A DNA stretch of 64,000 nucleotides from Pseudanabaena sp. BC1403 (GTDB lineage Bacteria > Cyanobacteriota > Cyanobacteriia > Pseudanabaenales > Pseudanabaenaceae), in assembly GCF_002914585.1 (NCBI RefSeq), contig NZ_PDDM01000023.1, forward strand, positions 1-64,000. The letters run 5' to 3'. How positions within the stretch are numbered: the stretch's first letter is position 1; every line of letters starts with the position of its first letter. Below are positions 35,329 to 48,258 of this stretch, one piece after another. The notes beneath the pieces are model-generated. The model was not told the origin of the DNA. It did not search any database and saw only the letters and a program-made list of their open reading frames with translations. A program made the position numbers and the translations under genes.

Positions 35329-36036
35329 ATGGATCTAAAAGATACTCTAGCTTTACTACATCCTGCGATCGCAATTGCATTTGTATTCCCATTGATTGGT
35401 ATCGTCATCAATCGTTCTTGGCTAACTCGTCAACGTCGTCTGCAAACCACAAATGGAGAGAAGAGTAAGATTCCTCCAAGTGTTGGCTCCGAGCATTTAG
35501 CGATCGGTTATTGGCTAAGCGGCTCGGTTGTAGGAGTAGCACTTTTGGGCATGGCTTTCCCAATTTTTTCTAAGATGATCGAACGCGATATTTTAACCAA
35601 AGAGCCATCACGGGTTGCCTTTGTGGTGATCTTGTTTATTGCTTCTACGGCTTCGATGGTATTTCTCTATCGGGCTACAAGCAAGTTATGGCGTGGTGTT
35701 TTTGCGACTCTATCTGGAGTGGGATTAATTATCTTAGGTGCTCAACCAGAGGTCTTTCGTCGCGATAAAGAATGGTTTTTCTCTCACTACTACTATGGAA
35801 TAGCCGCAGCTTTATTGATGATTTTTTCAATGGCGATCGTGCAGGATATTTACCAAGACCGCAAAAATCGCTGGCGAACTGTGCATATTTTACTGAATAT
35901 TTTTGCGACTATACTGTTTTTAGGGCAAAGTATGACTGGCGCTAGAGATTTGTTGTCCATTCCCTATAGCTGGCAAGCTTCCTACATCTCTAAATGTGAC
36001 TTTACAAATAAAACTTGTCCACAAATTAACAAATAG
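35329..36036 (+). CDS. DUF4079 membrane protein (possible b-type cytochrome)
   Basis: 235 residues with about five hydrophobic helices. The N-terminus LALLHPAIAIAFVFPLIGIVIN and SKIPPSVGSEHLAIGYWLSGSVVGVALLG are typical of cyanobacterial DUF4079. Conserved-looking His residues occur in or near helices (LLHPA, SEHLAIG, SHYYYG, VHILLN), and the last helix reads LNIFATILFLGQSMTGARDLL. This resembles cytochrome b561/ferric-reductase-type heme binding, which I infer and have not established. It is followed 70 bases later by a membrane-anchored FAD/2Fe-2S reductase, the natural electron donor for such a protein. Confidence 0.75.
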   Translation: MDLKDTLALLHPAIAIAFVFPLIGIVINRSWLTRQRRLQTTNGEKSKIPPSVGSEHLAIGYWLSGSVVGVALLGMAFPIFSKMIERDILTKEPSRVAFVVILFIASTASMVFLYRATSKLWRGVFATLSGVGLIILGAQPEVFRRDKEWFFSHYYYGIAAALLMIFSMAIVQDIYQDRKNRWRTVHILLNIFATILFLGQSMTGARDLLSIPYSWQASYISKCDFTNKTCPQINK

Positions 36037-36106: not shown

Positions 36107-37450
36107 ATGTTAGAAGATATTAGACAAATCTCAAATCCCTTGGTTAGGGCAATAACTTCTGGGTTGTTTCTCAGTTCTTTGGTAACCATACCTGCTTCTG
36201 CTGCAATTTTTTTAGTAAACTTCAAGAATGAATCTGCCTATAAATTCATTTTTTATGCCTCAATAGCTAGTGCTACAGTCGGTGCAGTGGGCGGTCTTGC
36301 ATCTGGGAAAAGTAAATCTGAGGTAACAGAAAGACCAATAGTTGAAACTACTGGTGGTATGGATTGGAAAGACTGGCGTAAATTTGTGATTGATCGCAAA
36401 GTTAAAGAGAGCGACAGTATCACATCTTTTTATCTAAAACCATTGGATGGCGGGACGATTCCCAACTTCACACCTGGGCAATTTCTGACAATTCAGTTAG
36501 ATATTCCTGAGCAGTCGAGACCTGTAATTCGCACCTATTCACTTTCTGATTACAGCAGATCATCCACTTATTATCGTCTATCAATTAAACGCGAACCTAC
36601 GCCTCCAGACACGATCGCACCTGCGGGGATTGCCTCAAACTTCATGCATGATCATGTTCATGAAGGCTCTGTTATTTTGGTAAAGCCTCCTGCTGGAAAG
36701 TTCGTGTTAGATGTGAATAGTTCGCAACCTGCTGTCTTAATCAGTAATGGTGTTGGTATTACGCCCATGATTAGCATGGCAAAAGCTGTTAGCTTGCTTA
36801 ATCCACAACGACATATTTGGTTTTTGCATGGTGCGCGAGATGGCAGCCTCCATGCCTTTCGTGATGAAGTTAATGCGATCGCAGTTAGTAATCCTAATTT
36901 ACATATCGTTTATTGCTATAGCCGCCCTAACTTGACTGATGAAGGAAATTATCAGCATAAAGGCTATGTGGATGTTGATTTGATCAAGAATGTAGTTGCA
37001 CCTGAGATGCAGAACTTTTATGGTTCGACGGATGCAGAATATTTCCTCTGTGGCTCTCCATCATTTATGGATTCACTCCGAGATGGATTGAGGGAATGGG
37101 GTGTAGCTGACAATAAGGTTCTATTTGAATCTTTTGCTAAAGCTAAGCCCAAGAAGTCAGAACCAGCCCAAGATCCATCCCAAGAACATGATTCTATCGA
37201 AATCGTTTTCGGGAAGTCTGGTAAAACTCTGAGCTGGAGTCCTAACGATGGCACGATTTTAGAGTTTGCGGAAGCAAATGATATCTATCCCGATCATAGT
37301 TGCCGTATTGGTGTTTGTGGTACTTGTATGTGCAAAATTTCTGAAGGAGAAGTTGAGTATGCGCAAGCACCAACGGCTTCTGTTGATGGTGATTCAGTTC
37401 TCATTTGCATCTCTAAGCCTAAAACTGCAAGGTTAGTTCTAGATATTTAA
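36107..37450 (+). CDS. membrane-anchored FAD/NAD(P) reductase with C-terminal 2Fe-2S ferredoxin domain
   Basis: 447 residues. Two N-terminal transmembrane helices (about 15-36 and 42-63) precede a ferredoxin-reductase FAD domain (VIRTYSLSDYS, the RxYS flavin motif). A nucleotide-binding domain follows (LISNGVGITPMISMAKAV, FLHGARDGSLHAF, YFLCGSPSFMDSL). Last is a plant-type 2Fe-2S domain (about 360-447) with cluster ligands CRIGVCGTCMC plus a later Cys (ICIS). The order matches Hcr/phenol-hydroxylase-type reductases. The membrane anchor and the DUF4079 neighbour suggest electron transfer from NAD(P)H across or into a membrane. The downstream hairpin marks the operon end. Confidence 0.88.
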   Translation: MLEDIRQISNPLVRAITSGLFLSSLVTIPASAAIFLVNFKNESAYKFIFYASIASATVGAVGGLASGKSKSEVTERPIVETTGGMDWKDWRKFVIDRKVKESDSITSFYLKPLDGGTIPNFTPGQFLTIQLDIPEQSRPVIRTYSLSDYSRSSTYYRLSIKREPTPPDTIAPAGIASNFMHDHVHEGSVILVKPPAGKFVLDVNSSQPAVLISNGVGITPMISMAKAVSLLNPQRHIWFLHGARDGSLHAFRDEVNAIAVSNPNLHIVYCYSRPNLTDEGNYQHKGYVDVDLIKNVVAPEMQNFYGSTDAEYFLCGSPSFMDSLRDGLREWGVADNKVLFESFAKAKPKKSEPAQDPSQEHDSIEIVFGKSGKTLSWSPNDGTILEFAEANDIYPDHSCRIGVCGTCMCKISEGEVEYAQAPTASVDGDSVLICISKPKTARLVLDI

Positions 37451-37553: not shown

Positions 37554-38336
37554 ATGAATATAATCGAATATGCGATCGAGGCTATTTGTTTAGGAACATT
37601 TATGGTTATAGCAACCATAGTTACAGCCATTTTTCAGCTTCCTAGCTCTCCTATTCATCAAGCGATCGCAGATCCTCTGTTACGGCGTTTTTTTATTGCT
37701 GTAGTAATTGCATTAACTGCAATGTCGATAGTTTATTCCCCATTTGGAATGCGATCGGGCGCTCATCTGAATCCCTCTGTGACCTTGACCTTCTGGCGAC
37801 TTAAAAAAATTCGCACAATAGATGCTTGCTTTTATATCTTGGCACAGGCTCTGGGCGCAATTTCAGGCATTTGGTTTGCTGGCATTTTACTCGGTATGGC
37901 GATCGCTGATCCATCGGTAAATTACATTGCTACAGTTCCCAGCTCTGCTGGTGAGTTGGGAGCTTTTTTAGTTGAGTTTTTACTCTCATTAGGAATGATG
38001 ACTTTGATACTACAGATATCAAATCATCCTAAGCTATCTCAATTGACGGGTTTGTTTTGTGGCATGTTGCTGGTGGTTTATATTACGATCGCTGCACCAA
38101 TTTCGGGGATGAGTATGAATCCTGCGCGATCTTTGGGTTCTGCCATACCCGCCCAAGCATGGCATGGCTTTTGGATTTATTGTGTTGCGCCTCCCCTAGG
38201 AATGATCATCGCCTCAGAAATCTATCTGCGCTTGATCGGCAAAAAGAAAAGCCGCGCCGAGTTATGCTGTAAACTTTGTCCAAATAGTTCTACTCGATGT
38301 ATTAGTCCAGTTTGCTGTCAGATGTGTAAACTGTAG
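37554..38336 (+). CDS. MIP/aquaporin family channel with Cys-rich tail
   Basis: 260 residues, six hydrophobic helices. The two pore half-helices are visible as SGAHLNPSVTLTFW (NPS in place of NPA) and SGMSMNPARSLGSA (NPA). The C-terminus adds a Cys-rich tail (LCCKLCPNSSTRCISPVCCQ, then MCKL) with seven cysteines, similar in kind to the RCIF-type tails seen on a subset of bacterial aquaporins; metal or redox sensitivity is possible. Substrate (water, glycerol or other neutral solutes) is not decided. Its 3' end overlaps a short convergent fragment by 19 bases. Confidence 0.9.
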   Translation: MNIIEYAIEAICLGTFMVIATIVTAIFQLPSSPIHQAIADPLLRRFFIAVVIALTAMSIVYSPFGMRSGAHLNPSVTLTFWRLKKIRTIDACFYILAQALGAISGIWFAGILLGMAIADPSVNYIATVPSSAGELGAFLVEFLLSLGMMTLILQISNHPKLSQLTGLFCGMLLVVYITIAAPISGMSMNPARSLGSAIPAQAWHGFWIYCVAPPLGMIIASEIYLRLIGKKKSRAELCCKLCPNSSTRCISPVCCQMCKL

Positions 38337-38536
38337 CTGCTGATATTGGACTTCGACTTTGGCAAGACAAGTAAAGAGATTGGATTTCTACCATCAATCA
38401 AATGCGTATCACCAAGATCGTGTAATTTGCTAGCGATCGCATTAGAAGCACCAAATATGATAGTAGCGATCGCGAGTAACCACCTACCGATAACCCGATC
38501 TTGAGAGTTAGGAATTCTAGAAAGTTCTTGAGCCAT
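38318..38536 (-). pseudogene. N-terminal fragment of a membrane protein (possibly EamA/DMT type)
   Basis: 72 residues. The start MAQELSRIPNSQDRVIGRWL, then LAIATIIFGASNAIASKL and LIDGRNPIS look like the first helix and loop of a multi-helix transporter. After Pro-Ile-Ser the sequence becomes low in similarity to anything membrane-like and stops within the aquaporin 3' end. I read it as a gene truncated where the aquaporin region joins. The family assignment is from memory and weak. Confidence 0.35.
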
Positions 38537-38954
38537 TGCTTGACTATATTTTGTTGTGGAGAGATAAAATTAAATGCGATCGCGTAGCTTTCTAGTTGAA
38601 GTCTGTTATAGGCGTATGATTTTTCAGCACTGGTTTAGGAATGTTATGCTGCATAGCGATCGATAAAACTCCATTCAGGTATGTTCCGCTGCAAAAAGTT
38701 TGTTCTTACTCTTATTGGTTGCTTTATCTGACTAGTTGTGTGATATTTATTTCATACAAGTATTTATCCTGTAATCTACATGATGATGTATAGTTATGCC
38801 GCTCAGTGCTTGGGAGGGGTATAGTGCAAGTTTATATATAGAAGATGATACCCAATTAAGAATAAGTTCTCGGTTAGGTATTGATGAATGTGGTGTTGAT
38901 AGAGTGAGATCGCATATTCTAAAGTGTATCTAACAGTAAACAACCAGTGAAGCA
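38537..38954. other. 418-base gene-free stretch
   Basis: AT-rich, with two HIP1-related GCGATCGC/CGATCG sites, no credible ORF and no strong hairpin. It lies at the left side of the accessory island and may be the decayed remainder of the truncated gene to its left. Confidence 0.5.
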
Positions 38955-39173
38955 ATGATCAAAAGCAAATTCAAATTCGTTTTCGTGAAGTACCTTCTGT
39001 TACTTGCCTTTGGGCTTGCAGTAACTGCAACCTTACTTTCGATCTTTGGAGGTGCAAATGTAGCACCTTTCTTAGCTCAAATCCTTCCTATTCTTTGGAG
39101 AATTCTTGTTGGTATTATACCTTTGATAATGGTTCTTCTTACTTTATTAACTATGGTTGAGTCCCTTAAATGA
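38955..39173 (+). CDS. small two-helix membrane protein, unknown
   Basis: 72 residues: a basic N-terminus (MIKSKFKFVFVKY) and two hydrophobic helices (about 14-32 and 43-66), ending with a short charged tail. No family recognised. It is followed 61 bases later by another small membrane ORF. Composition is lower in GC than its neighbours. Confidence 0.5.
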   Translation: MIKSKFKFVFVKYLLLLAFGLAVTATLLSIFGGANVAPFLAQILPILWRILVGIIPLIMVLLTLLTMVESLK

Positions 39174-39234
39174 ATACTACTCAAGCATAAGAAATGCAAA
39201 AGAAACAACTATTCAGTCAACCTGCAAATAAACC

Positions 39235-39633
39235 ATGCTAACTATTCTAGTATTTGTACTAACTATTATTTTCAGCTTTTTGTTCCACAGAAAAACAAAG
39301 CGTTTCCCAACTTTGCAGGCTGTACTTTTAGTTGCATTAGCCATTCTTGCTGCAATCCAAAATATTAGATTCTTTTACCTGATGTTGATTCCAGAACTTG
39401 GTAATATATCGTTTTTTAGTATTTTTCTGAATCAGGGAAATGGAGCGATAAATAACTCATCCGACTTGAAGACTTGCTTAAATTCTGTGGGCTCTGAATT
39501 TGATCGTTTTAATTTAGTTTTGGGTCCAGTTGCTGTAATATGGCTGTCGATTAAGCAAATAATAGAGCTTTTGCCTAATAAAGTTTCGTTACAGAATTCA
39601 TCTCAGCCCTCACAGTCAAAGCCTCAACCTTAA
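39235..39633 (+). CDS. small membrane protein, unknown; possible gene-cassette ORF
   Basis: 132 residues with an N-terminal hydrophobic helix (LTILVFVLTIIFSFLFHR), a second (about 24-42, LQAVLLVALAILAAIQNI), a shorter third region, and a Ser/Gln/Pro-rich tail (NSSQPSQSKPQP). No family recognised. Its stop lies 32 bases before an attC-like inverted repeat (39666-39756), an arrangement like a promoterless integron cassette. No integrase is present in the window. Confidence 0.5.
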   Translation: MLTILVFVLTIIFSFLFHRKTKRFPTLQAVLLVALAILAAIQNIRFFYLMLIPELGNISFFSIFLNQGNGAINNSSDLKTCLNSVGSEFDRFNLVLGPVAVIWLSIKQIIELLPNKVSLQNSSQPSQSKPQP

Positions 39634-39665
39634 TACCAAAATATTGAAAGAGACTACCTAGACGT

Positions 39666-39756
39666 GCCATAACAATCCCGTTGCACACCGCCCGTTTCAA
39701 GTCTTTTCGCTGAGTTCGAGAGGTTGCTAGCGGCGGGTGAACGGGGGGCGTTATGC
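39666..39756 (+). repeat. attC-like imperfect inverted repeat
   Basis: Left end GCCATAAC-AATCCCGTTGCAC with following CCGCCCG pairs imperfectly with the right end CGGGTGAACGGGGGGCGTTATGC. The pairing leaves small bulges and a central variable region, as in integron attC recombination sites (R''-L''...L'-R', ending GTTATGC). It follows a small ORF at cassette-like spacing. No intI is visible, so this is a structural call only. Confidence 0.5.
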
Positions 39757-39824
39757 TAAACCGAATAAGCCCGACAAAGTTATTTGTTTCCAGCCGAAAT
39801 TAGGCGCTCAAAAATGATTTGCTT

Positions 39825-39886
39825 CGTTGGTGAGTTCCAAAAAGTTGTCGGCGATCGCAAAGACAAATAATTATTAAGTGCGATCG
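39825..39886 (+). repeat. direct repeat, left copy, flanking the protease pair
   Basis: A roughly 60-base sequence (CGTTG...GTTCC...GGCGATCGCAAAGACAAATAATTA...CGATCG) repeated in the same orientation at 40657-40716. Together the copies bracket the two-gene unit at 40000-40640. The 39634-39999 gap otherwise holds the attC-like element and a short AT-rich stretch. Confidence 0.75.
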
Positions 39887-39999
39887 ACAATCTTGTAGGG
39901 TGCGTTAATGAAATGTAACACACCTTTTTTAGTACCAAATGTAGGGTTTCATTGTTACCCAAAGCTATAATGACACTATAAACTAACAACACAAAAGCT

Positions 40000-40275
40000 A
40001 TGTCAGTTCGTCAACGGCGTTACAGCAAAGAAGAATTAGCTCGGCGTGGTCAGGAACTCTATGAATCTAGCATTCGGCAGCAAGTAGAATCTGGTAATAC
40101 AGGTAAGATCGTAGCGATCGATATTGAAACAGGAGCCTTTGAAGTCGCCGATCATGTTTTGCCAGCGACTAACGAATTATTCAAGCGATATCCTGATGCT
40201 CAACCTTGGGTTATTCGTATTGGACACCGTGCTGTTTATCACTTTGGCTCAAGGAGTTTGGTGAAACCTAAATGA
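40000..40275 (+). CDS. small protein paired with an aspartyl protease, unknown
   Basis: 91 residues. Starts MSVRQRRYSKEELARRGQEL, with a helical N-terminal half and a second half VAIDIETGAFEVADHVLPAT...QPWVIRIGHRAVYHFG. This two-gene arrangement with a clan AA aspartyl protease is frequent in cyanobacteria. The first protein may be an antitoxin-like or substrate partner, which is unproven. It ends in an ATGA overlap with the protease gene (40272-40275). Confidence 0.7.
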   Translation: MSVRQRRYSKEELARRGQELYESSIRQQVESGNTGKIVAIDIETGAFEVADHVLPATNELFKRYPDAQPWVIRIGHRAVYHFGSRSLVKPK

Positions 40276-40640
40276 TGCAAGGAGTTGTTAATCGGCGGTG
40301 TGAGGCAACACTTCCATTGGTTGTTGGTAATGCGAACGGGCAAAGGCAAGTTATCGATGCTGTCATTGACACAGGTTTCAATGGGTTCCTCACTTTGCCA
40401 TCTTCAATCATCGCTGCTCTTGATTTACCGTGGAACGCTTCCGACATCGTGACCTTGGGTGACGGTAGCGAAACTTTCTTTGATCTGTATTCAGTAACAG
40501 TTATCTGGGATGGACAGTTTCGTGAAATTGATGTTGCTGAATCAGAGACTGACCCTTTGATTGGAATGTCACTACTCTACAAGTATGGATTGCGAATAGA
40601 TGCAGTTGAAGGAGGTATCGTGAGAGTTGAAGCCCTATGA
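40272..40640 (+). CDS. clan AA (retroviral-type) aspartyl protease
   Basis: 122 residues. The catalytic motif is AVIDTGFNGFLTLPSSIIAA (D-T-G, about residues 32-34), followed by a second-half hydrophobic-hydrophobic-Gly segment LIGMSLLYKYGLRID, the fold signature of pepsin/retropepsin-like single-domain proteases that act as dimers. Target unknown. It is coupled to the 91-residue gene upstream, and the pair is bracketed by direct repeats. A second Met immediately follows the first. Confidence 0.8.
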   Translation: MMQGVVNRRCEATLPLVVGNANGQRQVIDAVIDTGFNGFLTLPSSIIAALDLPWNASDIVTLGDGSETFFDLYSVTVIWDGQFREIDVAESETDPLIGMSLLYKYGLRIDAVEGGIVRVEAL

Positions 40641-40932: not shown

Positions 40933-41739
40933 ATGAAACTAGATGGAAAAGTTGCCCTAGTCACTGGAAGCAGTGGTGGCATTGGTCAAGGTATTGCGAT
41001 TCGATTGGCAAAAGAAGGCGCTAAAGTTGTGGTCAACTATCGCTCTAATCCCCAAGGCGCTGAAGAGACTTTAAGTGCTATCAAAGCAACTGGTGGAGAT
41101 TGCATGATGGCTGAGGGTTTCTGTGACAACGATCGCGGCTATAGCATTGGTGCTGATTTGGGAATGGTTGATGACGTTCGTAAATTGATCGATGAAAGTA
41201 TTGAGCATTTTGGAACCCTTGATATTCTGGTTAACAATGCGGGGATTGAGAAACATGCTGATTTCTGGGATGTGACCGAAAAAGATTTTGAAGCGGTGAT
41301 GAATATCAATTTTAAGGGTGTTTTCTTTGCGACCCAATCTTTCGTTAAACATCAAATTAGTGAAGGCAAACGCAACGGACGCATCATCAATATTAGCTCT
41401 GTTCATGAAGAATTGCCATTTCCGCATTTTACCGCCTATTGTGCCAGCAAAGGTGCGTTGAAGATGATGACACGCAACCTTTCCGTAGAGTTGGGCGCAC
41501 TTGGTATCACTATCAATAACGTCGCCCCTGGTGCGATCGAAACTCCAATTAATAAGGCACTTCTCAACGACCCGACCAAATTGGAACCATTGCTAAAAAA
41601 TATTCCTTTGGGGCGATTGGGACAACCTGAAGATGTCGCTTCTGTCGTTGCTTTTTTAGCATCCGATGAGGCTAGATATATTACTGGTTCGACAATGGTG
41701 GTAGATGGTGGTCTGCTATGGAACTATCAAGAGCAGTAG
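40933..41739 (+). CDS. short-chain dehydrogenase/reductase, glucose 1-dehydrogenase-like
   Basis: 268 residues of the classical SDR family. It has the coenzyme motif [12 protein letters not shown] (GxxxGxG), NNAG in [14 protein letters not shown], the catalytic Ser-Tyr-Lys ([24 protein letters not shown]), PGAIETPIN and the C-terminal [12 protein letters not shown]. The Arg in VVVNYRSNP suggests NADP preference. A 14-residue insert around [14 protein letters not shown] is unusual. The exact substrate is undetermined; glucose 1-dehydrogenase is the nearest named subfamily. First gene of a four-gene operon, with eight bases to the next start. Confidence 0.88.
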
Positions 41740-41746
41740 AAAGATC

Positions 41747-42829
41747 ATGAATCTTAAATTTCAGAATGTAATTTTTGCGATCGCTATTACTGCAACTGGG
41801 CTGGCTGTTCAAGAGCCTTTCTTATTAGGACAAATCTCGGCGCGATCGCCATTTGTAATTGCTCAAGCAGAAACAAATAGTATTACTGCTGTTGACTCTG
41901 TAGGTATTACAGTTTCAGATATGGATAAAGCCATTCAGTTTTACTCTGAAGTTTTATCCTTCCAAAAAATATCTGATGTCGAAGTCTTAGGCTCCGAATA
42001 TGAACGACTCCAAGGTTTATTTGGCTTGCGTTTGAGGGTTGTAAAAATGCGGCTGGGTACGGAGATTCTGGAATTAACGGAATATCTCACGCCCAAGGGT
42101 AGACCGATTCCTGTCGATTCACATAGTAACGATCGCTGGTTTCAACATATTGCGATCGCAGTCCGCGATATGGATAAAGCCTATGAGATTCTTCGGAAAT
42201 ATAAAGTGCAACATGCTTCCACTGCGCCACAAAGGATTCCTGACACAAATAAAGCCGCCGCAGGAATTCGGGCTTTCTACTTTAAAGATCCTGACGGGCA
42301 TAATTTAGAAATCATTTATTTTCCTAAAGGTAAAGGCGATCCCAAATGGCAAGAGAATAAGGGGCAAGAGAATTCCCAACAAGTCTTTTTAGGAATTGAC
42401 CATACTGCGATCGTTGTCAGTAATACGGATGCTAGTTTGCAGTTTTATCGAGATCTTTTGGGACTCCGACTGGCAGGTGAAAGTGAAAACTTTGGCATTG
42501 AGCAAGAGCATCTTAATAATGTCTTTGGAGCAAAGTTACGCATTAGTGGCTTACGAGCGCCATCGGGTTTAGGAATTGAGTTTCTAGATTATTTGTCACC
42601 AAGCGACGGTAAGCCTTTCCCACCTGATGCGCGACCTAATGATTTACTGCATTGGCAGACGACTTTAGTTGTCAATGATGCCAAGGCGATCGCGCAAAAA
42701 TTGCGAAGTTCCCGCACAATTTTTATTTCTCCCGACGTAATTGAAATACCTTACCGCTCTTTTGGGTTTAAGCGCGGATTTTTAGTTAGAGATCCCGATG
42801 GTCATGCCTTAAGGATAATTGAAAAATAA
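41747..42829 (+). CDS. exported protein with two VOC (glyoxalase/bleomycin-resistance) domains
   Basis: 360 residues from the ATG at 41747, preferred over an in-frame upstream codon because it gives a proper signal peptide (FQNVIFAIAITATGLAVQEP, cleavage near AQA). Two VOC domains follow, about 44-190 (DSVGITVSDMDKAIQFYSEV...FKDPDGHNLEIIYF) and 212-358 (IDHTAIVVSNTDASLQFYRD...VRDPDGHALRIIEK). Both keep the D-P-D-G-H...E/R end motif. A tandem VOC pair usually makes one metal-dependent active site. Lactoylglutathione lyase or extradiol dioxygenase-like roles are possible. Export outside the cytoplasm is unusual for VOC enzymes. Confidence 0.8.
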   Translation: MNLKFQNVIFAIAITATGLAVQEPFLLGQISARSPFVIAQAETNSITAVDSVGITVSDMDKAIQFYSEVLSFQKISDVEVLGSEYERLQGLFGLRLRVVKMRLGTEILELTEYLTPKGRPIPVDSHSNDRWFQHIAIAVRDMDKAYEILRKYKVQHASTAPQRIPDTNKAAAGIRAFYFKDPDGHNLEIIYFPKGKGDPKWQENKGQENSQQVFLGIDHTAIVVSNTDASLQFYRDLLGLRLAGESENFGIEQEHLNNVFGAKLRISGLRAPSGLGIEFLDYLSPSDGKPFPPDARPNDLLHWQTTLVVNDAKAIAQKLRSSRTIFISPDVIEIPYRSFGFKRGFLVRDPDGHALRIIEK

Positions 42830-42879
42830 GTGAAGATCTAAACAAAAAAATTTAATCAAAAAAATTTAGCTATAACATT

Positions 42880-43710
42880 ATGAATATTCCTAATCAATCA
42901 TCATTTACACTTGATTTCCAGCAACTTGCCGAAGCGCGAATCCAACTCCACTATGCTATCCAGCCATTAGCCTCTATCTCCAACGCTCTAGCAGATTCGA
43001 GTAATAAAGGATTATTCTGGGACGAGCAGCTAGGGTTCACAACCCGCGCAATTACCTCGATTAAGTCGTATCGACTTGCTCTCGATCCGATCGCATTAAC
43101 TCTAAATTTTTTAACCGATCGCGATCAAATTATTTCTTCCTTTGCTTTAAGCGATCGCACATTGACTGAAGCATTTATTTGGACGAGGGCGATCGTTAAT
43201 GGATTGGGCGGTGAGGGAGATCTAATCACCCCAATTTCCTATCCACCTAACGACTTCCCTGACAGTGATCTTGCCCGTGGCAAAACTTTCCAACTCAAGC
43301 ATTTAACTTCAGATTTGACAAAATATTATGCCATTGCAGATCAACTTCTCCAAAATATAGTCCAGCAAGAACCTATGGCATCTAATGTTCGCATTTGGCC
43401 ACATCATTTCGATATTGCAACATTAATTTCCATCCCAGATGAAGCAAATGGACAAGAGAAATCCGTAGGTGTCGGTCTATCTCCAGGTGATGACGGCTAT
43501 AACGAGCCTTACTGGTATGTAACTCCCTATCCTTACCCCGAAGATCGCAGTAATTTACCTAAGTTAGATGGCGATGGGTTTTGGCATACAGAACATTGGG
43601 TTGGGGCAGTGCTTACTGCTTCTCAATTTGGTGAACCTAATGCAAGTATTGATCAAGTTAGCGCCTTTTTAAAATCTGCGATCGCCTCTTGCAAAGAACT
43701 ATTGAATTAG
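42880..43710 (+). CDS. conserved-looking protein of unknown function
   Basis: 276 residues, no signal peptide or membrane segment. Notable stretches are NVRIWPHHFDIATLISIPDE, SVGVGLSPGDDGYNEPYWYV, TPYPYPEDRSNLPKLDGDGF and WHTEHWVGAVLTASQF, rich in His, Trp and Tyr and suggesting a metal- or ligand-binding beta fold. I do not recognise the family with confidence. Third gene of the SDR-VOC operon; the next gene starts directly after its stop. Confidence 0.65.
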   Translation: MNIPNQSSFTLDFQQLAEARIQLHYAIQPLASISNALADSSNKGLFWDEQLGFTTRAITSIKSYRLALDPIALTLNFLTDRDQIISSFALSDRTLTEAFIWTRAIVNGLGGEGDLITPISYPPNDFPDSDLARGKTFQLKHLTSDLTKYYAIADQLLQNIVQQEPMASNVRIWPHHFDIATLISIPDEANGQEKSVGVGLSPGDDGYNEPYWYVTPYPYPEDRSNLPKLDGDGFWHTEHWVGAVLTASQFGEPNASIDQVSAFLKSAIASCKELLN

Positions 43711-43728
43711 ATGAATGAGGTTAAACTT

Positions 43729-44718
43729 ATGTCAAAAATTAGTTGTCTCCCTGATAAACGTTCCATAGAAATCAACAAATCCGATACGGTTTTAGAGGCT
43801 TTATTAGCAAATGGAATCGAGCATACCCATGTCTGCGGTGGAAATGCCTATTGTTCCACTTGTCGAATCATGATTTTAGATGGAGTGCAAAATTGTAGTC
43901 CCCCAACTAGCGCTGAAAGAGCTTTAGCTAAAAAACTGGATTTCCCTGTTCATGTTCGTCTTGCTTGCCAAACTAAGGTTACGGGAGATGTTTCGATTCG
44001 CCGCATGGTGATTGACAATGAGGACATTGATATTCTCGAAGGTCAGCTTGCTACTGGTGCTGTAAATAGCGATCGCAATGTAGCTTTGCTAGTTGCCACA
44101 ATTCGCGGAGCGACTAATTTTGATGAGGTGAACTTTCACTACGATATTGTCTATATCATGAGTCGCTATTTTCATCGAGTTCAGAAAGTCGTGGGTCAAT
44201 ACGGTGGGGTTATTCCTAACGTCATGGGCGTAAGAGTTATGGCAGTATTTGGATTTGAGAAAAACAGTAGTTTAGCCGCAGAGAGAGCGGTATGGGCGGG
44301 TTTAGAATTGCTTAAAACCATAGCGGAATTGAATGTTTTCTTAAAGAAGTTATCTTACAATCCGCTAAATGTGAGCATTGGTATTCATTATGGTGCAGCT
44401 GTTTTAATTCCGATAGATCCCAGCAAGCCCAATGTTCTTACGCCTTTGGGTGATATTGTGAATTCAGTCGGTCGAATTGAAGCTGCCAATCAAGAAGTTG
44501 GGAGTGATTTGTTGATTTCAGAATCAGTCTACAACCAAGTCAAAGACAAAGCGATTATCAATCGTAACGGTAATTTCAGCCTAGGTAAAACCGAGTTTAA
44601 GGTCTATGAAGTCACTGGTATGCAGGGAAATCCTCCTAAGGTAGCGAAAGCGCAAGAATCTACTGCTCCTGTACCTAAGAGATTCATGTCTTTTCTCCAG
44701 AAGTTCTTGTCTAAATAA
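43729..44718 (+). CDS. 2Fe-2S ferredoxin fused to a class III nucleotide-cyclase-like domain
   Basis: About 329 residues from ATG 43729, chosen because GAGG lies eight bases upstream; an ATG at 43711 would add six residues. Counting from 43711, ferredoxin ligands are Cys42, Cys48, Cys51 and Cys86 (VCGGNAYCSTCRI and RLACQ). A class III cyclase homology domain spans about 122-310 (VALLVATIRGATNFDEV, VMGVRVMAVFG, SIGIHYGAAVL, GDIVNSVGRIEAANQ). The two metal-binding Asp positions are replaced (Thr130 for the D of D-I-x-G-F-T; Val174 for the D of G-D), while the Asn and Arg of the VNxxxRxE motif remain. Probable redox-sensing pseudo-cyclase. Ends the operon. Confidence 0.85.
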   Translation: MSKISCLPDKRSIEINKSDTVLEALLANGIEHTHVCGGNAYCSTCRIMILDGVQNCSPPTSAERALAKKLDFPVHVRLACQTKVTGDVSIRRMVIDNEDIDILEGQLATGAVNSDRNVALLVATIRGATNFDEVNFHYDIVYIMSRYFHRVQKVVGQYGGVIPNVMGVRVMAVFGFEKNSSLAAERAVWAGLELLKTIAELNVFLKKLSYNPLNVSIGIHYGAAVLIPIDPSKPNVLTPLGDIVNSVGRIEAANQEVGSDLLISESVYNQVKDKAIINRNGNFSLGKTEFKVYEVTGMQGNPPKVAKAQESTAPVPKRFMSFLQKFLSK

Positions 44719-44777
44719 ATCTTCATTCTTAAATCTAGAAGAAAATCTATGTCTACTGAACATTATGATGTCATTAT

Positions 44778-44814
44778 TAAAAGAATTGCCCCGCTTAGCG
44801 GGGCAATTCTTTTA
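44778..44814 (+). terminator. operon terminator
   Basis: Perfect 17-bp arms (44778-44794, 44798-44814) around TTA, 59 bases after the cyclase-like gene, GC-rich core with flanking A and T runs. Confidence 0.85.
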
Positions 44815-44976
44815 GGCTTTGAAAACAGTTATAACTTCTCAGGCAGAATTAATCATTCTCTCATTTTCACATCAGGGTGACTTCAGGCAAAAGGTAAATA
44901 CTTAGATCAATACAAAAAGAACTAGTTCATTAATTAGTTCTCCAAAAGAATAAATTCTATATCGAGAGATAAAATC

Positions 44977-45330
44977 ATGAAAAAATTACTTCTAGCTTTC
45001 TTGCCTGCACTCTTACTCTCTGCAACTGCTACAGTTCCTGCCGCGAAAGCTCAAGATGCTATGCAAATGCCTTCCATAGAAGTAAAAATGAGAATCACCT
45101 TGACACCCTTCAATCTTGCTTATCTGGCGCATCAGGGCTATTTTACAAGCCAAGGTATTCCTGATTCTGAGGGTCTAATGAAAGGCTTTAACGATGGTTC
45201 GATTACCGCAGCTCAACTGGTAAAGGCAGCAGTCAACGACAAACGACTACCTGCTGCATTCTTGACGAATGATTCCTATATCTCCGCAGTTAAGAACCAG
45301 TTATATACTCTCTCTCTCTCAGCTCGTTAA
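44977..45330 (+). CDS. small exported protein, unknown
   Basis: 117 residues with a clear signal peptide (KKLLLAFLPALLLSATATVP, cleavage near AKA/QDA). The mature part is about 90 residues, with FNLAYLAHQGYFTSQGIPDS and a helical C-terminus. No cysteine pairs and no family recognised. The ATG follows a GAGAGATAAAATC leader. Isolated between the operon terminator and a miniature element. Confidence 0.65.
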   Translation: MKKLLLAFLPALLLSATATVPAAKAQDAMQMPSIEVKMRITLTPFNLAYLAHQGYFTSQGIPDSEGLMKGFNDGSITAAQLVKAAVNDKRLPAAFLTNDSYISAVKNQLYTLSLSAR

Positions 45331-45609: not shown

Positions 45610-48258
45610 ATGATGAATCCAGAGCAAGTTAGATTAGTAGAAACTAGAAACGGAAAACCTTGGAAGCAATGGGGATCTTATCTTAGCGAGCGGCAATGGG
45701 GAACTGTTCGCGAAGACTATAGCGCTTCGGGAACTGCTTGGGACTATTTTTCTCACGATCAGTCTCGCTCGCGTGCCTATCGATGGGGAGAAGATGGGCT
45801 TGCTGGTATTTCTGACGATCATCAGTTTCTCTGCTTTGCGATCGCACTCTGGAATGGAACCGATCCGATTATTAAAGAAAGATTGTTTGGGTTAACTGGC
45901 AGCGAAGGCAATCATGGTGAAGATGTTAAGGAGTATTACTTTTATCTAGATAATACGCCCACACATTCCTACATGAAATATCTGTACAAGTATCCTCAAG
46001 GAGCTTTCCCCTACGAACAACTTGTAAAAGGGAATCAACAGCGCAGTCGAAATGAACGAGAACTTGAGTTATTGGATACAGGTGTATTTGATAGCGATCG
46101 CTACTTTGATGTGGTTGTTGAATATGCTAAAAATTCGCCGCAGGATATAACAATCCAAATCAGCATTACCAATCACGCGCCTGACGCACAGACGATTCAC
46201 CTGTTACCGTCGCTGTGGTTTCGGAATACTTGGGTTTGGGACAATAGCAAGAAACCCTCACTTAAGGCTCATTCTTCAGACATGATTGCGGCAAGTCATG
46301 AGCAATTAGGGCAAATGTGGCTCTATTGTCCAGAGAGTAAAGAATTACTATTTACAGAAAATGAAACCAACTATCAGCGGCTATTTGGAACTGCAAATAG
46401 CTCTCAATATGTAAAGGATGGCATTAATGATTATATTGTCAATGGTAAAGCATCGCTAAATCCTCAGCAACAAGGCACAAAAGCTGCTGCTCATTATGAA
46501 CTAGCGATCGCATCGGGTGAGACTAAAGTTGTCAGATTGCGATTGAGCGATATTGCCCCTGATGTCCTCGTTTTGGGAGTAGAAGCCGAAATTGTGGCAA
46601 CGAGACTGCGCGAAGCTAATGAGTTCTATCAACAAATCTCTCCATTTGCGATGACGGATGATATGCGAAATGTCCAGAGACAAGCTTTTGCAGGAATGTT
46701 ATGGAGCAAACAGTACTATAACTATCTCGTAAAACCTTGGTTAGAGGGCGATCCAGCTACACCAACTCCACCAAGCGAGCGCCTCAACGGACGAAATGCT
46801 AAATGGTTTCATTTGGAATCTGAAGAGATTCTTTCGATGCCAGACAAATGGGAATATCCTTGGTTTGCGGCTTGGGATTTGGCTTTCCATACGATTCCGA
46901 TCGCGATGATTGATCCAGATTTTGCTAAACGACAACTTGACGTGATTACTCGCGAATGGTTTATGCACCCAAATGGGCAAATCCCAGCCTACGAGTGGGC
47001 TTTTGGTGATGTCAATCCTCCTGTTCATGCATGGGCGACCTATCGGGTTTATAAGATTGAGCAGAAGATGTATGGCAAAGGCGATCGTAAATTCTTAGAG
47101 CGGGTTTTTCAGAAACTTTTGTTAAACTTCACTTGGTGGGTAAATCGCAAAGATCGCGAAGGAAAAAATGTTTTTGAAGGCGGCTTTTTGGGATTAGATA
47201 ACATTGGAGTATTTGATCGTAGTGCTGAACTCCCCACGGGCGGATATATTGAGCAAGCCGATGGTACTAGCTGGATGGGCATGTATTGCTTAAACATGCT
47301 AACAATCGCCTTAGAACTAGCAAAAGAGAATCACGTTTATGAAGACATTGCCACGAAATTCTTTGAGCATTTTCTCTACATTGCTGATGCAATGAACAAA
47401 GTTGGAGAGAAGCATACAGAACTCTGGGACGAGGAAGATGGCTTTTACTACGATGTTCTTAATCTACCCTCTGGTAATCAACTAAAACTAAAAGTGCGAT
47501 CGCTAGTGGGGTTAATTCCTCTCTTTGCAGTACAAACATTAGATCCCGAACTACTAGATCAATTGCCCGAATTCAAAAATAGAATGCAATGGTTTATCAC
47601 CCATCATCCTGAGCTAACTCAAAATGTCTCTTGCATGGAAACCTGTGGGATGCAAGCTAGAAGGTTACTTGCGATCTGCTATCGCGATAAACTCCAACGC
47701 ATTTTAACCAAAATGTTAGATGAGAGTGAATTTTTAGGCGCATATGGTATTCGTGCACTCTCTAAATTCCATAAAGATCACCCCTATATTTGGAGAGCTA
47801 AAGGTAGTGAATATAGAGTCGATTACGAACCTGCTGAATCTTCAAGCGGTCTGTTTGGTGGAAATTCTAACTGGCGTGGACCAATTTGGATGCCAGTAAA
47901 TTTCCTCATTATCGAATCCCTACAAAAATTCCATCATTTCTATGGTGATAGCTTTAAAATCGAGTATCCTAATGGCTCAGGAAATTTGATGACTTTAAAT
48001 GATGTTGCTGCCAAGCTATCTCAACGCTTAATTAATATCTTTGTAAGAGATACGCATGGCGATCGCCCTTTAAACGATCCACAAAAAATCAAAAAATCAA
48101 AATTCGATACTGATGCTAACTGGAAAGATTTAGTGTTGTTCTATGAATATTTTCATGGTGATAATGGCTCAGGGATTGGCGCTAGTCATCAAACTGGATG
48201 GACAGGGCTGGTGGCAAAACTAATTCAACAATCAAGTGAATATTCTGATAAGAATTAA
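45610..48258 (+). CDS. GH63-type glucosidase (MGH1-like glycoside hydrolase)
   Basis: 882 residues, full length for the cyanobacterial/bacterial GH63-like glucosidase family. It has an N-terminal beta-sandwich ([38 protein letters not shown]) and a large (alpha/alpha)6 barrel with [40 protein letters not shown] and [19 protein letters not shown]. Related enzymes hydrolyse alpha-glucosyl or mannosylglycerate-type linkages. No signal peptide, so cytoplasmic. The exact substrate (glucosylglycerate, kojibiose-like or glycan) cannot be read from sequence. Transcribed alone; a double hairpin follows its 3' end. Confidence 0.85.

Follow-up and report, generated by a model that had tools for sequence, protein, structure and literature searches.

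A ferredoxin–cyclase fusion without catalytic metal ligands in Pseudanabaena, and the metal-less cyanobacterial clade to which it belongs

The locus comprises four same-strand open reading frames with short gaps, in the place and order given by the original prediction, within a 64,000-nucleotide stretch of Pseudanabaena sp. BC1403 DNA that we call the window. The first (40933–41739, +) encodes an SDR resembling glucose-1-dehydrogenase (adh_short_C2, 5e-62 in Pfam); in the PDB, it matches glucose 1-dehydrogenases best (E about 1e-61). The second (41747–42829, +) encodes a double VOC protein of glyoxalase fold (Pfam Glyoxalase, 1.3e-28, in two stretches) with what looks by eye to be a signal peptide; a further upstream ATG of this frame, at 41705, would overlap the SDR gene. 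The third (42880–43710, +) encodes a DUF5996-like protein whose Pfam match (2e-4) is below the cut-off and for which no PDB match was found; a gene of this kind adjoins VOC and GMC genes in other cyanobacteria.

The fourth gene (43711–44718, +) encodes a 2Fe-2S ferredoxin fused to a class III cyclase domain, as had been proposed; this assignment draws on Pfam, on alignment with the solved cyclase 2W01, on individual residues and on membership of a clade with 100/100 support. Both Fer2 (2.5e-11) and Guanylate_cyc (2.3e-9) score above their Pfam cut-offs, the latter at 37.5 bits against a cut-off of 21.9, and the protein begins directly at the ferredoxin, with no heme-B membrane anchor of the CyaC type. 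Its cluster cysteines (42, 48, 51 and 86) follow the CX5CX2C...C pattern of adrenodoxin/ISC-type ferredoxins, and the nearest solved ferredoxin is 1I7H (E 5e-10). The nearest solved cyclase domain is 2W01 (E 1.5e-14), which we take to be the cyanobacterial cyclase Cya2 of Synechocystis; Thr130 and Val174 of the fusion align with the two metal-binding Asp of that structure, which bears out the predicted replacement of both. The VNxxxRxE motif is also kept as predicted, in the form VNSVGRIE, with the transition-state residues Asn251 and Arg255 followed by Glu257, and Asn170 occupies the position of the Lys of adenylate cyclases. The expectation that the domain would not cyclise nucleotide is supported by the missing metal Asp, a state that defines an old, conserved clade. 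Translation is likely to start at ATG 43729 rather than at the first ATG, 43711, because a GAGG lies at 43717–43720 and the first ATG of the window is replaced by TTG in relatives; the residue numbers used here would then drop by six, the metal positions becoming Thr124 and Val168. An AlphaFold model of the fusion, built from 8 close sequences, reached a pLDDT of 39.5 and was discarded.

The fusion had been proposed to end the operon; in relatives, however, the operon continues past it, from a second GMC oxidoreductase gene (GMC2) onward. Three relatives (L031, L032 and L037) share the order SDR–GMC1–VOC–DUF5996–ferredoxin-cyclase–GMC2–small protein, and a GH63-like gene comes next in L031 and L037, L032 stopping at the end of its contig. 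The window retains the first 10 codons of GMC2 (MSTEHYDVII; 44749–44778, +), a remnant that the original prediction had overlooked and that was recognised by alignment with L031: the two sequences align to 44779, and the match picks up again 1645 bp later in L031. GMC1 is missing from the window and from L035 and L036. Neither GMC flavoenzyme gene thus survives in the window strain, apart from 30 bp of the second at 44749. Another GMC gene of the genome (L152, G000:C14:44048-45595) is 62% identical to the lost GMC2, whose activity may therefore come from elsewhere.

At the deletion junction lies a perfect, GC-rich, 18-bp palindrome (44777–44815, +; z −7.1). It is terminator-like in form, as the predicted single terminator would be, but a simple terminator scan of the window does not list it. 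The genome contains the exact TTGC-type pattern twice; a similar GC-rich palindrome stands in place of the fusion gene in another Pseudanabaena strain (G010, locus L114), and L031 has a further one after GMC2. In this genus, palindromes of the kind may indicate where DNA was deleted or inserted.

The wider cluster extends on both sides of the four genes. Downstream lie a gene for a small exported-looking protein (44977–45330, +), whose position is conserved in relatives, and a gene for a GH63-like glycosidase (45610–48258, +), identified by Pfam search and likewise conserved in position. Upstream are genes for a histidine kinase, a response regulator, a DUF4079 membrane protein (35329–36036, +), an FAD/NAD reductase that itself carries a 2Fe-2S domain (36107–37450, +) and is also found in the clusters of L107, L109 and L114, and an aquaporin. 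From the aquaporin gene to the SDR gene (38318–40640) are small open reading frames that vary between Pseudanabaena strains; two overlapping ones at 40000–40640 gave no Pfam matches. Because the GMC2 protein is nearest to FAD glucose and fructose dehydrogenases and the SDR resembles glucose 1-dehydrogenase, the cluster looks like one for sugar oxidation. Four His of the DUF4079 protein (H11, H56, H153 and H186) are invariant in four sequences, which brings to mind diheme-b cytochromes, the CyaC anchor among them, and makes the protein a putative heme binder.

Gene orders among relatives show that the link between the fusion and these genes is local. The cluster occurs without the fusion at five loci (L107, L108, L109, L111 and L112), and the genome of L107 carries a fusion elsewhere (L051). 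Strain G010 has the cluster with the palindrome in the place of the fusion and is nested among fusion-bearing strains, so the absence is a loss; since this congener keeps the rest of the cluster, the pathway can do without the fusion. Beyond Pseudanabaena, the neighbours of the metal-less fusion are assorted housekeeping genes; the exception is G131 (L066), with DUF4079 directly after the fusion. A close double-VOC relative was found in 3 of the 9 genomes of the phylum sample that have a metal-less fusion, two of these being Pseudanabaena. The four genes are not conserved together outside the genus, an outcome that the original prediction had itself named as refuting it; the gene orders rule out the four-gene module as a natural unit, and what had appeared to be a self-contained, undescribed module is the remnant of a larger cluster. 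The tie of the fusion to sugar-oxidation genes is a local arrangement of one genus.

To place the fusion, relatives were gathered from 58 close genomes, from 386 phylum-wide genomes, of which 17 had a ferredoxin-cyclase relative at E≤1e-30, and from the family. In a maximum-likelihood tree of 44 rows, calculated after removal of six active-site columns, one branch with 100/100 support separates all 24 rows that lack the two Asp from the others, and 100% of the bootstrap trees have this single split; the unsure placement of long rows such as CyaC leaves the split unaffected. The tree was rooted on other cyclases, and since all of these keep both Asp, the loss of the metal Asp is the derived state. 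Metal-less rows span at least eight cyanobacterial families, and metal-less and canonical copies coexist in two genomes (G027, with L051 and L052; G167, with L065 and L077). As judged from the sequences, a single loss removed the catalytic metal site, and it predates the divergence of several cyanobacterial families or the exchange of the gene between them. A ferredoxin-cyclase fusion is a known kind of protein; the metal-less clade is the new part. We found no description of this clade in a literature search whose coverage was incomplete, subscription journals being mostly outside it.

Conservation within the clade differs between the two domains. All four cluster cysteines are retained in every metal-less row. 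In 15 metal-less representatives, T, S, A, G, R, N or K occupies the first metal position, and V, L, N, T, G, I, S, W, K or H the second; the replacements have no residue in common, on which ground alternative metal ligands at the two Asp positions were rejected, and which gives no support to the different chemistry that the original prediction had allowed for. Asn251 is kept in 7 of the 15 and replaced in 8, Arg255 is kept in 11 and replaced in 4, and both are present in all Pseudanabaena copies. The absence of a common ligand replacement and the loss of Asn or Arg in outlying members together indicate a pseudoenzyme rather than an alternative metal site. The mean share of the top residue is higher in the ferredoxin than in the cyclase domain of the metal-less clade (0.72 versus 0.57); in the canonical sisters, the values are 0.68 and 0.69. 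Even so, the metal-less cyclase domain has acquired conserved residues of its own: among the representatives, D138, F142, L198 and Y216 never vary and W195 and P218 hardly do, all at positions that hold other or mixed residues in the canonical sisters, and P309 is also among the new invariant residues.

Pairwise dN/dS against seven Pseudanabaena relatives, estimated by the simple Nei–Gojobori method and with high synonymous distances for L037, was 0.04–0.12 for the cyclase domain and 0–0.07 for the ferredoxin, values (≤0.12) that place both domains under purifying selection in Pseudanabaena. Together with the clade-wide conservation of the cysteines, these ratios rule out a decaying pseudogene; together with the conservation pattern, they indicate that the cyclase domain is maintained for a role other than metal-dependent catalysis.

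We consider it probable that the fusion is a soluble ferredoxin-pseudocyclase acting as a redox-responsive, non-catalytic effector. From its residues, the protein would no longer make cAMP or cGMP; the cyclase domain would persist as a dimerising effector that binds a partner, and perhaps nucleotide. By analogy with CyaC of Sinorhizobium meliloti, whose cyclase activity reportedly follows redox state, reduction or loss of the cluster may alter how the pseudocyclase dimer binds its partner or nucleotide. In Pseudanabaena, where its gene lies among genes for the oxidation of sugars and aldehydes, the fusion could plausibly report or relay the electron load of the SDR, the two GMC flavoproteins and the VOC, GH63-like and FAD/Fe-S reductase proteins.

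It is unlikely, though worth weighing, that the protein is an electron-carrier ferredoxin and nothing else, with the cyclase domain as a passive dimerisation tail. The ferredoxin is indeed the better conserved part in the metal-less clade, and redox enzymes, among them the FAD/Fe-S reductase, are encoded in the same cluster; but the cyclase domain is itself under strong purifying selection (at the ratios given above), and the invariant residues gained in it across the clade seem to exceed what a passive tail would need.

We give still less credence to a heterodimeric cyclase in which the fusion would be the C2-like half. Mammalian transmembrane adenylyl cyclases have a heterodimeric site whose C2 half is without the metal Asp and has the Asn and Arg; here the fusion would likewise give Asn and Arg, and another cyclase the metal Asp. 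The presence of Asn251 and Arg255 in every Pseudanabaena copy fits such a half, but their replacement elsewhere in the clade (8 and 4 of 15 representatives) means that the clade does not need them, and the substrate Lys position is Asn170. The genome has 23 matches to PF00211, and 21 cyclase domains, including that of the window, could be extracted from it; the domain of the window alone is without both metal Asp, which the other 20 all keep, and no second ferredoxin-cyclase was found in the genome at E≤1e-30. One of the extracted domains (L134, G000:C3:118108-118581) has both metal Asp and the Asn but carries Ala at the catalytic Arg position, as could be expected of a C1-like partner; it is of another type, however, with Asp at the second substrate site, and we judged this only candidate unlikely.

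A different chemistry, or a metal site made from other ligands, is very improbable: selection persists where the canonical site is gone and D138 is invariant in the metal-less representatives, but no common residue has taken over at the two ligand positions, and D138, 8 residues past the first metal position, would be expected on a helix away from the site.

Whether the preferred reading of the fusion as a redox-responsive pseudocyclase extends to the clade is a more tentative matter. It is conceivable, at somewhat less than even chances, that ferredoxin-pseudocyclases widespread in cyanobacteria are redox switches acting through protein contact or through nucleotide binding without turnover, which would give the class III cyclase fold a bacterial equivalent of the pseudokinases. 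If so, they would show cleanly, in a natural example, how an enzyme can become a non-catalytic redox effector with its Fe-S domain and fold kept: catalysis would have been dropped in one step, and the lineage would then have persisted or spread over many cyanobacterial families. As a canonical paralogue survives in some of these genomes (two were found), metal-less and canonical forms can be compared directly.

Among known systems, proteins described from alpha- and betaproteobacteria have a ferredoxin that comes after a heme-bearing 6TM anchor and before a class IIIb cyclase (PMC4821796). The fusion shares with CyaC a ferredoxin of the CX5CX2C...C pattern directly before a class IIIb cyclase domain, a redox theme and a homologous core, with 33% identity over residues 14–276 and a place in the same tree; CyaC, in contrast, has the 6TM heme-B anchor, both metal Asp and the substrate Lys, and the window protein has neither anchor nor metal Asp. 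Closer in build are the soluble canonical ferredoxin-cyclases of cyanobacteria, Rhizobium etli and Hymenobacter, which have the same domain order and a similar length and form neighbouring lineages in the tree, but retain both metal Asp, the Asn and the Arg. The Rhizobium etli protein (L123:2989-4383) adds a Rieske-like C-terminus to its ferredoxin and canonical cyclase. Twelve of the canonical cyanobacterial proteins (L052, L058, L059, L061, L062, L070–L075 and L077) have Asn for the adenine-specifying Lys, and L063 has Val. The solved cyclase 2W01 differs in having both metal Asp and no ferredoxin. The C2 half of mammalian adenylyl cyclases resembles the window protein in lacking the metal Asp while keeping Asn and Arg; unlike it, the window protein has no fused C1 partner, has Asn at the Lys position and belongs to a clade that loses the Asn and Arg.
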